Shown piece by piece: positions 21 through 6,533 of a stretch of DNA of 38,900 nt. The DNA lies in NCBI GenBank assembly GCA_015059155.1, contig SVAX01000010.1, forward strand, positions 1 to 38,900, written 5' to 3'. How positions within the stretch are numbered: position 1 is the first letter of the stretch; each line of letters begins with the position of its first letter. The stretch is from Bacillota bacterium (GTDB lineage Bacteria; Bacillota_I; Bacilli_A; RF39; UBA660). Below the pieces are notes generated by a model, which saw nothing but the letters and a program-made list of their open reading frames with translations, did not search any database and was not told the origin of the DNA. A program made the translations under genes and the position numbers.

Positions 21-97
21 GGCGATGTAGCTCAGTTGGCTAGAGCACATGGTTCATACCCATGGTGTCGAGAGTTCGAATCTCCCCGTCGCTACCA
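21..97 (+). tRNA. tRNA-Met (CAT anticodon), CCA encoded
   Basis: GGCGATG...CGTCGCT acceptor pairing, GGTT-CAT-ACC anticodon region, GTTCGAATC T-loop, ACCA 3' end. Confidence 0.95.
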
Positions 98-231
98 ATA
101 GAATTCGACAGGCCCTTGTTTTACAAGGGTTTTTCTATTATTTCCTTATTTTCCAAAGGTTTACAAGGGATATTTTGTTAATATTTTTTCAAAAAAAGTT
201 TGTTTGTATTTTATAAAAACAAGACCAAAAA
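81..231. repeat. Copy 1 of ~150 bp imperfect direct repeat (tRNA 3' end + terminator + left-end motif)
   Basis: tctccccgtcgctaccaatagaattcgac..gcccttgttttacaagggtttttctattat and gttaatattttttcaaaaaaagtttgtttgtatt recur at a constant offset of ~1313 bp. Confidence 0.9.
113..138 (+). terminator. Rho-independent terminator after tRNA-Met
   Basis: CCCTTGT-ttt-ACAAGGG followed by TTTTT. Confidence 0.85.
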
Positions 232-337
232 TAGGAATCTAAGACTAAAATAAGACTAAAACAAGACCAAAATTTTTTTTAAAATTGATTCTTTTCTGTT
301 GTTTTAAAATATGTTATAATATTCATGGTGATAGTAA

Positions 338-1261
338 ATGAATTTAAAACAGAAACAAACTATTATAAATTCTATTATGATAAATGAAATTAGAGAAAAT
401 AATCTTGATACAAAATTTTATTCTTGTTGTCGTATAAATTATTATAATAGTGATTTTTTCAAAAAAATCCAAAAAGATAAAAAAAATAATAGAATAGTTA
501 AACTAGGAAATTTAATCATTCCATTAATATCAGGTGGTTTTCACGCTGAACATAATAATGAAAGAGATATAATAGTTTTTTTAGACAAAATTGACATAGT
601 ACCAGGTTTCTCATTACCACTTGTTAGTTTGTTAAAAACTACCTATCATGAACTTTATCATGCATTGCAAAATAAAGAACTAAATTCTACACCTACAGAT
701 ATGTCATACGATTTGTTTGCCAGTCAATGTGATATGTTTATTTGTAGTAATGAAAGTATTGATTTTTTAAAATATTATTTTACACGCAGTGGGCATGATA
801 CTCAAATGTTTGAAATTTTAGCTAATCTACATGGTGTAAAAAAAACTGAGGAATATTCACAAAATAATAACATTAAAATAAGTTTTCTAGAACAAATGAA
901 ATTAGACAAGCAGAAACAAAAATATCAATATCAGTATCAAAATTATGATTTAACTAAAAGATTAAATCTTATAATTGACAATTATGATAAATACATAAAA
1001 AATGATGAATTTAATAAAACAATTTTTGAACTATTCTTAAACGAAAACGGAACTGTAAAAGATATTAATACAATTTTTTCTAACGAAAATGTTTTAGATA
1101 TGGACCCTAAAATTTTATTAGCATTTATAAAAACTAATGCAATAAAAAAAGCTATTAGTGAAACAACACTAATAGAAAAAACGTCTTACTTTTTAAACGA
1201 ATTATTAACAAATGGTTCAACACAATTATTTCAAGAATCGGAAAACAAAAAAACTATTTAG
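338..1261 (+). CDS. Hypothetical protein with HExxH metalloprotease-like motif (TTYHELYHALQN)
   Basis: 307-aa ORF; HELYH fits the HExxH zinc-binding consensus; flanked by the direct repeats. Confidence 0.75.
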   Translation: MNLKQKQTIINSIMINEIRENNLDTKFYSCCRINYYNSDFFKKIQKDKKNNRIVKLGNLIIPLISGGFHAEHNNERDIIVFLDKIDIVPGFSLPLVSLLKTTYHELYHALQNKELNSTPTDMSYDLFASQCDMFICSNESIDFLKYYFTRSGHDTQMFEILANLHGVKKTEEYSQNNNIKISFLEQMKLDKQKQKYQYQYQNYDLTKRLNLIIDNYDKYIKNDEFNKTIFELFLNENGTVKDINTIFSNENVLDMDPKILLAFIKTNAIKKAISETTLIEKTSYFLNELLTNGSTQLFQESENKKTI

Positions 1262-1393
1262 CATTTAAACTTATTTTTTTATAATTCTCTATTGTTTGAT
1301 TATAAAAAAAATAAGACCAAAAACAAGCCCAAAATGATTTTAAGTTTTCATAAACCCTTATAAAATAAAGGTTTAAAGAAGAATAGCGCCAAC

Positions 1394-1544
1394 TCTCCTC
1401 GTCGCTACCAATAGAATTCGACGAGCCCTTGTTTTACAAGGGTTTTTCTATTATATGACCTAAAATCATTGAAAAATAAGGGTTAAAATGTTAATGTTTT
1501 TTCAAAAGAAGTTCGTTTGTATTTAAAAAAAACAAGACCAAAAC
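1394..1544. repeat. Copy 2 of the tRNA-Met 3'-end/left-end direct repeat
   Basis: tctcctcgtcgctaccaatagaattcgacgagcccttgttttacaagggtttttctattat ... gttaatgttttttcaaaagaagttcgtttgtatt. Confidence 0.9.
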
Positions 1545-1672: not shown

Positions 1673-2284
1673 TCAATAATCTGTTTTTACATAATACCAG
1701 TTGTCTTTTAAATTTTTAACACTTATTATCGGATGACCTGTTTCATTTTCTTTTATTAATCTTTCTCCATTAGAAGAATAAATCAATTGATGTGAACCAC
1801 TTAACATTCCCCTAAAAATCCAAAAACATATAACTTGTCCTTCTTTATCGTTTTTATATATAGTTATTTCTCCATCTGATGACAATTTTTTTAAATTTTT
1901 AGGCAATTCAGCATTACCATATTCATCTATCTCAATTTCATTATTCTTAACTTTTTCTATTATTTGCAACCTTTCTTCCTCATAAATATATAATTCTAAT
2001 ACCGTTTTTACATTTCTAAAAGGAAATACCAATCTTAGAAACATGGAACCTATAACTATTATAATAGCAATTAAACTTAATTTTGATTTATTTGTCTTTT
2101 TTATAATAAGAGCAACTAATATTACTACTATATTTAATAAAACAATAAATGCTTCCGGAATTAACTGAAATATAAACAAATTATCTAAAAGCATATCTTC
2201 ATACCAACCTAATATAAAATTTATAATAAATAAAATTAGTGATATTACTATAATTATTATTCCAATCTTGTCTTTATTTTTCAT
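1673..2284 (-). CDS. Hypothetical membrane protein (three predicted N-terminal TM helices, C-terminal soluble domain)
   Basis: Hydrophobic stretches IGIIIIVISLILFIINFIL, AFIVLLNIVVILVALII, LSLIAIIIVIGSMFLRLVF; likely start MKNKDK within the 1673-2296 ORF. Confidence 0.7.
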   Translation of the reverse strand: MKNKDKIGIIIIVISLILFIINFILGWYEDMLLDNLFIFQLIPEAFIVLLNIVVILVALIIKKTNKSKLSLIAIIIVIGSMFLRLVFPFRNVKTVLELYIYEEERLQIIEKVKNNEIEIDEYGNAELPKNLKKLSSDGEITIYKNDKEGQVICFWIFRGMLSGSHQLIYSSNGERLIKENETGHPIISVKNLKDNWYYVKTDY

Positions 2285-2388
2285 ATATTTACACACCTTA
2301 ATATTTACAAAACAATTATATCACACCAATATTGCTTTTTCAACATTCAAAACTTGCACAATTAATATATTTATGATAAAATGTATTT

Positions 2389-2498
2389 AGTGAAGGAAAC
2401 TTCATATAATATAAAAGGAACACTTAATATCGCATGTTGAGTGTTGCCCATATTTGTGCATCACCTAAATCATTGCTGAGTTAGGTGATTTTCTTTTC
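2389..2498 (+). ncRNA. Candidate antitoxin small RNA (~105-110 nt)
   Basis: Promoter TTGCAC (2354-2359)-N17-TAAAAT (2377-2382); hairpin AACACTTAA...TTGAGTGTT; terminator TCACCTAA..TTAGGTGA followed by TTTTCTTTT; no ORF. Confidence 0.65.
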
Positions 2499-2580
2499 AT
2501 ACTAAAACTATAAATAGTAATAATACTAATAGGAAGATAAGTATGATTAATGAAAAGATTAGCAAATCTTTCTTAAACAT
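2497..2580 (-). CDS. 27-aa hydrophobic peptide, candidate type I toxin: MFKKDLLIFSLIILIFLLVLLLFIVLV
   Basis: Strong SD GGAAGGAGGG 5 nt before ATG; promoter on minus strand TTGATA (2671-2666)-N16-TATAAT (2649-2644); single TM helix with KK near the N-terminus; convergent with the 2389-2498 RNA. Confidence 0.65.
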   Translation of the reverse strand: MFKKDLLIFSLIILIFLLVLLLFIVLV

Positions 2581-2843
2581 AATATCCCTCCTTCCTTTTT
2601 TGGAATTTGGCAATCACCCAACTATTAAATGTTCCTATATATAATTATATCAAACATATATTCTATATCAATAGTATATATTTATTTTTTTATTATTTTT
2701 GAAAATAAGACTAAAAACAAGACCAAAATTATTTTAATACCCTACTTTACCCTTATAAATAAAGGGTTTATAAAAAAATGAGATAGGCGTGTATCATCGC
2801 TAAAATTTTGATATTAAATTAGAACTATACTAGCAAAATTTTA

Positions 2844-6317: not shown

Positions 6318-6493
6318 TAAAAAGCCAGAAGAGCGATGCCCTGAATCGAATAAAGCCTAGTCTCCCAGGTGGGCATCACATCACAACTTTTAGGATCCCT
6401 AAATTAATAGGTCTTCTACACCAGCCATGAATTAGATTCCCTATATTTTCGATTAGTAGGTTTTTCATAAGGGTTATATCGCATCTTCCAGCA
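6318..6493 (-). ncRNA. ssrS: Structured ncRNA, candidate 6S RNA
   Basis: Promoter TTGAAT (6527-6522)-N17-TATAAT (6504-6499); ~175-nt transcript whose ends pair (GCTGGAAGAtGCGAT / ATCGCTCTTCTGGC) followed by TTTTT; no coding potential. Size and closed rod shape suit 6S RNA. Confidence 0.55.
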
Positions 6494-6533
6494 ATTTAAT
6501 TATATCATTTTTAAAAACCATATTCAATAATTT

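Follow-up and report, generated by a model that had tools for sequence, protein, structure and literature searches.

We conclude with considerable confidence that a short locus within the window (the whole stretch of 38,900 nucleotides of DNA analysed here) is a type I toxin-antitoxin module, one of a new family that is present in many copies. The anatomy of the module, the selection on its coding frame, the structure of its RNA as revealed by covariation, the cognate co-variation of its pairing arms and the obligate linkage of its two genes are all directly supported. As is characteristic of type I systems, the locus encodes an antisense RNA that is complementary to the toxin mRNA: a covarying RNA abuts the peptide frame, and the cognate pairing was matched in 0 of 2000 permutations. 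What is new about the module is how it combines principles of control that are already known: the layout of par/Fst, a 3' overlap of the txpA type, and a predicted mRNA self-pairing that recalls hok and AapA.

Anatomy of the window locus

A preceding sequence-only reading of this DNA had proposed two convergent genes with overlapping 3' ends, and a coordinate check places both promoters and their spacers exactly where it had put them; the convergent overlap and the 27-aa minus-strand frame behind a strong Shine-Dalgarno (SD) sequence were recovered as well. The parts of the locus are as follows.

2354-2382, plus strand: antitoxin promoter TTGCAC-N17-TAAAAT (-35 TTGCAC at 2354-2359, -10 TAAAAT at 2377-2382, spacer 17 nt); aligned upstream consensus TTg..tttTtatgttataat in 127 copies
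2389-2498, plus strand: antitoxin RNA of ~108 nt, ends predicted; fold z -5.0 against shuffles, 109 bits with covariance model R1, covariation
2391-2404, plus strand: 5'-terminal hairpin of the antitoxin RNA, TGAAG-GAAA-CTTCA; from folding, near-invariant in the alignment
2403-2637, minus strand: putative full-length toxin mRNA, its 5' end predicted to lock onto its 3' end; -72.1 kcal/mol, z -8.4
2405-2418, minus strand: toxin-strand U-tract (conserved AATAAAAAAGG on the plus strand), proposed tail of the toxin terminator; 97% of 128 copies
2419-2445, both strands: hairpin 1, an antitoxin structure on the plus strand and the proposed toxin terminator stem on the minus strand, with pairing block A as its 3' arm; covariation in helix 1, 94.8% paired
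2458-2468, plus strand: pairing block B, GCATCACCTAA, the 5' arm of the antitoxin terminator; from cognate duplex energies
2460-2498, plus strand: antitoxin intrinsic terminator, stem 2460-2489 followed by a U-rich tail; from folding, helix 2 covaries, tail 70% U
2497-2580, minus strand: putative toxin peptide of 27 aa, KKD type, MFKKDLLIFSLIILIFLLVLLLFIVLV; ATG at 2580-2578, TGA at 2499-2497; homologous frames in other copies, under selection (see below)
2581-2637, minus strand: toxin 5'UTR; from the promoter position, aligned across copies
2586-2595, minus strand (2595-2586): Shine-Dalgarno sequence GGAAGGAGGG
2592-2605, minus strand: small stem TTCC/GGAA adjoining the SD; a weak prediction in the window copy
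2610-2621, minus strand: toxin 5'UTR block B', UUGGGUGAUUGC (repeat GCAATCACCCAA), which pairs with block B
2622-2636, minus strand: toxin 5'UTR block A', GGAACAUUUAAUAG, a copy of the 5' arm of antitoxin hairpin 1; in the predicted fold of the full-length mRNA it pairs with the 3' end
2644-2671, minus strand (2671-2644): toxin promoter TTGATA-N16-TATAAT with extended -10; 11/12 to consensus

The promoters are weak evidence by themselves, since a promoter scan of this AT-rich region returned 22 sites where 16.2 +/- 4.4 are expected, and the two in the window alone therefore prove nothing. Comparative evidence was thus needed, and the significance of the locus comes from conservation across copies. 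TATAAT is present at the toxin promoter in 68 of 106.

A multi-copy family

The locus is not a singleton; it is one of a large family with three peptide types. Its host belongs to the uncultured gut bacteria of the Bacilli/Tenericutes kind. The window DNA matches further copies in its own genome at 77-79% identity, and a search with the antitoxin covariance model R1 (E<0.001) yielded nine copies there. Within the host's family the same model has matches in 279 of 386 genomes (~72%), spread over 118 of 150 genera, with 1 to 21 copies per genome among genomes of the same genus. In a class-wide sample, matches were confined to the host family plus one match in another family; this sole outside copy (L237:3048-3158) lies near the end of a 12-kb contig, and would reflect transfer or contamination. 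Approximately 100 further regions were retrieved, a subset of which, together with the own-genome loci, gave the 128 copies compared here. Tandem arrays of 2-4 modules in one orientation, spaced by 318-491 bp, were observed in L160, L162, L197, L218, L223, L229, L230, L235 and L236.

A viral or plasmid origin was considered and rejected: IMG/VR holds no exact match to a 27-base motif of the module, and phage and plasmid collections gave no match to the module at the sensitivity of blastn. A literature search on the family or its host likewise returned nothing.

The antitoxin RNA

The plus-strand RNA, proposed earlier to carry a terminator ending near 2498, indeed ends in a stem and U-tract at that position, and the stop codon of the peptide (2499-2497) abuts this RNA end as had been pointed out. 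Among 126 distinct copies, all 20 of the 20 modelled base pairs show double changes and 94.6% of cells are paired, a level that 0 of 500 shuffles come near, with the reservation that an alignment fitted to the model favours the structure somewhat. As a control, sliding the partners against each other cuts pairing to ~35%. The RNA follows a conserved promoter and starts with a small GAAA-loop hairpin, after which comes AATAAAAAAGG.

Rfam covariance models detected no antitoxin RNA family in the window at gathering score. BsrG, which had the best Rfam score of the toxin RNAs, was discarded as a relative, its E-value of 2.6 being that of chance. Elsewhere in the window, the minus strand carries a 6S RNA at 6318-6497 (Rfam RF00013, 64.8 bits).

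The peptide and its linkage to the antitoxin

The sequence-only reading had named lack of conservation of the frame in homologous loci among the things that would refute it; an intact short hydrophobic convergent frame with an SD lies opposite the antitoxin in 106 of 128 copies, its stop codon mostly -10 to +13 nt from the antitoxin RNA end. Three peptide types, KKD (that of the window), TKRE and IKVL, share one RNA scaffold. The frames are under purifying selection (dN/dS 0.19 for KKD, 0.23 and 0.43 for the other two), and the peptides measure 25-31 aa with median GRAVY values of 3.63, 2.95 and 2.87 for the best 19-mer. Pfam, NCBIfam and PHROGs hold no family matching the peptide, in keeping with the earlier remark that it has no obvious match to Fst, Ldr, TxpA/BsrG or holin-like toxins, and no similarity to a solved peptide was found. 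Sequestration of the SD was rejected as a general rule: the SD-stem is predicted strongly in IKVL and in part of the KKD copies, and weakly in TKRE and in the window copy (0.34).

In one own-genome copy (L072:1501-1760) the toxin reading frame is shifted within a stretch of eight A that follows the start codon, which may reflect decay, an assembly error or phase variation.

An independent sequence model of the KKD toxin and its 5'UTR, run on whole genomes at E<1e-5, gave 40 matches, of which 38 adjoin a convergent antitoxin and the other two are cut by contig ends. Antitoxins without an intact toxin amount to 20 of 126, and toxins without an antitoxin to 0 of 38 (Fisher p 0.004), a comparison that combines two models differing in sensitivity and in which part of the missing toxins may reflect assembly errors. 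Such an asymmetry in decay is what a harmful toxin would be expected to leave behind.

Pairing of the two RNAs and of the toxin mRNA ends

The direct repeats at 2458-2468 and 2610-2621, and the 9-bp complementarity to the toxin 5'UTR that the sequence-only reading derived from them, correspond to a block B duplex of -13.8 kcal/mol in the window, an energy that 2 of 2000 shuffled UTRs attain. Since an energy test on the whole antitoxin RNA proved noisy, block-wise tests were used instead. For block B, cognate pairs come to -14.2 kcal/mol versus -9.7 kcal/mol for non-cognate pairs (z -8.2 within genomes), a preference matched by 0 of 2000 within-genome permutations and again by 0 of 2000 with the peptide type also fixed, values which overstate independence because the copies are related. 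The arms of block B have diverged between copies in a compensated manner. The SD lies outside block B. Block A also pairs with the toxin 5'UTR, significantly so within genomes, and was dropped as a specificity element because this significance is lost once the peptide type is fixed (z -1.1). Of the proposed likeness to the DRa/DRb logic, the part that concerns block B thus stands as cognate-specific, and the part that concerns block A does not. An apparent recombinant was seen at L222:3090-3339, in which a peptide and an antitoxin of TKRE type are combined with an IKVL-type 5'UTR; its cognate pairing is poor (-8.6 kcal/mol).

On the toxin strand, at least 7 U are found in the 11 nt after hairpin 1 in 97% of 128 copies, and a U-tract follows the antitoxin terminator stem in only 0.8%. 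The toxin mRNA therefore probably extends to ~2405, in which case its last 90 nt would probably be fully complementary to the antitoxin. The earlier reading had missed this apparent read-through of the entire antitoxin terminator, with the toxin transcript stopping at hairpin 1. It had equally missed that the 5' and 3' ends of the toxin mRNA are complementary, with the same hairpin arms serving both pairings: the toxin 5'UTR is almost a duplicate of antitoxin hairpin arms, which allows the two ends of the mRNA to base-pair with each other. Folding predicts this for the full-length mRNA of the window and for 96 of 104 toxin mRNAs, and the arms concerned also pair with the antitoxin. The lock amounts to -36.0 kcal/mol for cognate ends versus -23.1 kcal/mol for swapped ends (0 of 2000). 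Given that the same arms take part in pairing of the 5'UTR with the antitoxin and with its own 3'UTR, covariation alone cannot apportion selection between the two.

Genomic context

Upstream of the module, the window holds the following features.

21-97, plus strand: tRNA-Met anchoring a variable island
87-137, plus strand: first copy of a 51-nt repeat of the tRNA-Met 3' end, the second copy lying 1313 bp further on
1400-1450, plus strand: tRNA-Met 3' end repeat, copy 2, the left border of the module's cassette
1673-2296, minus strand: predicted membrane protein of 207 aa in the module's cassette, kept at the tRNA-Met island of the related genome G008

The recurrence of the tRNA-Met 3' end 1313 bp downstream frames one cassette, and the module sits in the next, which agrees with the tRNA-anchored cassette described before. 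The strong bias of antitoxin copies towards sites directly behind tRNA 3' ends had gone unnoticed. In 28 of the 31 fetched loci having a tRNA, the nearest one is upstream and in the same orientation, and the start of 18 copies, against ~0.3 expected, falls 50-155 nt beyond the 3' end of a tRNA or tmRNA. The eight other own-genome copies have no tRNA close by, and the two of them that were inspected sit between core genes. This led us to reject tRNA genes as the site of every copy, and makes the linkage a strong preference and not a rule.

In G008 the order tRNA-Met, 207-aa protein, module, murI is kept, and the gene of the first cassette has no match at its tRNA-Met island. G002 has tRNA-Met and murI in its neighbourhood and no match to the module there. 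Behind a tRNA-Leu lies a 2.1-kb element with a 20-bp tRNA-end repeat at its borders, whose only long frames are the module and an HNH protein.

Both L214:2853-5040 and window 87-1450 are small cassettes with tRNA 3' end repeats at their borders and no integrase gene. That of L214 carries the module and, possibly as a defence gene, a 387-aa HNH-nuclease protein, part of which is predicted to lie in the membrane. Cassette 1 of the window contains, at 338-1261, a 307-aa ORF with an HELYH motif, a possible metallopeptidase, and DNA matching part of it occurs in a tRNA-Arg island of G004 (L270:3073-3458). AAGAC[C/T]AAAA repeats cluster at cassette ends (window 221-272, 1313-1322, 1534-1554 and 2707-2728), perhaps as recombinase arm sites, and a similar arm-like sequence is found near tRNA-Glu in G008 (L267:1284-1362). 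In linkers between tRNA and antitoxin (e.g. L160:2954-3031 and L214:2931-3009), a terminator-like hairpin on the tRNA side, ACGACTTGTCAAAAAGTCGTTTTT, overlaps the antitoxin promoter, with the antitoxin -35 sitting in its loop.

Discussion

The closest likeness in layout is to par (RNA I/RNA II, Fst) of pAD1 and chromosomal par loci, which have convergent genes and repeats that pair the antitoxin with the toxin 5'UTR, a toxin mRNA of ~230-245 nt, a 3' overlap ending before the coding frame is reached (PMC7472228), and locus-specific repeats that differ between copies (PMC7472228, PMC4147584). The convergent arrangement with 5'UTR-pairing repeats that marks Fst/Ldr is thus present here. However, the toxins share no sequence signature, the module's antitoxin is longer, with two main hairpins and a 5' hairpin, and its mRNA has extensive self-complementarity between the 5' and 3' ends. 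Whereas par/Fst uses a shared bidirectional terminator, the toxin transcript of the module probably ends at hairpin 1, judging by the two U-tract frequencies and hence by predicted transcript ends. Fst/Ldr toxins are defined by a P/D/S/TxxxG motif in the membrane segment (PMC7472228), which occurs in 0 of 42 KKD, 0 of 42 TKRE and 1 of 20 IKVL peptides. The tryptophan that precedes a highly charged C terminus is likewise absent (W in 0 of 42 KKD and 0 of 42 TKRE), and the last six residues hold on average 0.3 (KKD) and 1.0 (TKRE) charged residues. The Fst_toxin profile PF13955 matched 0 of 58 related genomes, its sensitivity being limited in that the control matched only Lactococcus lactis, below cut-off. 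On motif, tryptophan, charged tail and profile we reject Fst membership. The module would be a true Fst/Ldr member only if diverged past sequence recognition, a reading to which the common architecture, repeats, 3' overlap and transcript sizes lend something, as do the K and D in the N terminus of the KKD type, charged N-terminal residues being of importance in Fst (PMC7472228). With KKD and TKRE peptides lacking PxxxG, tryptophan and charged tail, and with no Pfam or NCBIfam match, we regard it as unlikely.

Other known systems resemble the module in single respects. The predicted pairing of the two ends of its full-length toxin mRNA recalls hok/Sok and AapA/IsoA, in which such pairing keeps the full-length mRNA inert (AapA3, hok: PMC6733600); their peptides are unrelated, the antitoxin of the module differs in converging at the 3' end, and mRNA processing in the module is putative. 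With txpA/RatA, bsrG/SR4 and the prophage modules of Clostridioides difficile it has in common convergence, a long 3' overlap and short membrane peptides; those of C. difficile stabilise their prophage and have cognate-specific antitoxins (PMC7699646). No sequence relation to any of these three was found, and the module adds pairing in the 5'UTR. Sib RNAs overlie the toxin gene itself, a different gene arrangement from the module's convergence at 3' ends. Ibs/Sib resembles it in having a very short, almost wholly hydrophobic peptide (Ibs 19 aa) and several copies per genome (PMC8309996, PMC4147584).

Could the peptide be something other than a toxin? A convergent, RNA-controlled small membrane peptide with a regulatory or signalling role (compare transporter-binding peptides), its level set by the antisense RNA, would show identical conservation and antisense control. 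Addiction is the better fit to a copy number of up to 21 per genome, to antisense repeats specific to each copy, to the location in tRNA islands and to decay of the toxin ahead of the antitoxin, and we give a non-toxic peptide only a slim chance. It is more doubtful still that the locus is a dispersed repeat, MITE-like or REP-like hairpin DNA, with an incidental ORF: units of ~320-490 bp, tandem arrays, many copies, hairpins and a fixed orientation behind tRNA genes do recall such elements, but purifying selection on the frame, an SD in place and the retention of three peptide types on a single RNA scaffold make this very improbable.

For the toxin-antitoxin module that we favour, we infer transcription, transcript ends, folding order, toxicity and a role in keeping DNA as follows. 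The minus strand would yield an mRNA of ~235 nt for a 27-aa single-pass membrane peptide, presumably toxic from inside by disturbing the membrane, and the plus strand would yield the convergent antitoxin RNA of ~108 nt. The toxin mRNA would cross the antitoxin gene and end at the reverse of hairpin 1, and such read-through would make its 3' end fully complementary to the antitoxin. As its 5'UTR copies the antitoxin hairpin arms, the newly made full-length mRNA is predicted to adopt an inert fold, its 5' end pairing with its 3' end. Once the mRNA is freed or trimmed at its 3' end, block B' would pair with block B of the antitoxin, the 3' overlap would form an extended duplex between the two RNAs, and both would shut translation or trigger decay. 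Should antitoxin synthesis stop, for instance when the cassette is lost, translation of the stored mRNA would follow.

Type I modules are thought to be narrow in range because searches begin from known toxins (PMC12390103). This family is invisible to Pfam, NCBIfam, PHROGs and Rfam, and yet occurs in ~72% of sampled genomes of a large uncultured family of gut bacteria. Its more than 100 aligned copies, many of them within one cell, offer a natural record of how parallel modules evolve specificity in RNA-RNA pairing. Through their tRNA linkage, the modules are also tied to variable genomic islands. Tentatively, as a possibility that we would not put at even odds, they may form a separate type I superfamily. 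In it a single set of arms, copied from the antitoxin into the 5'UTR, would lock the new mRNA and also be the target of the antitoxin, and divergence of these arms between copies would keep the modules orthogonal. As many as ~20 addiction modules could then exist side by side, a large number of them protecting cassettes that are anchored at tRNA genes and lack an integrase.
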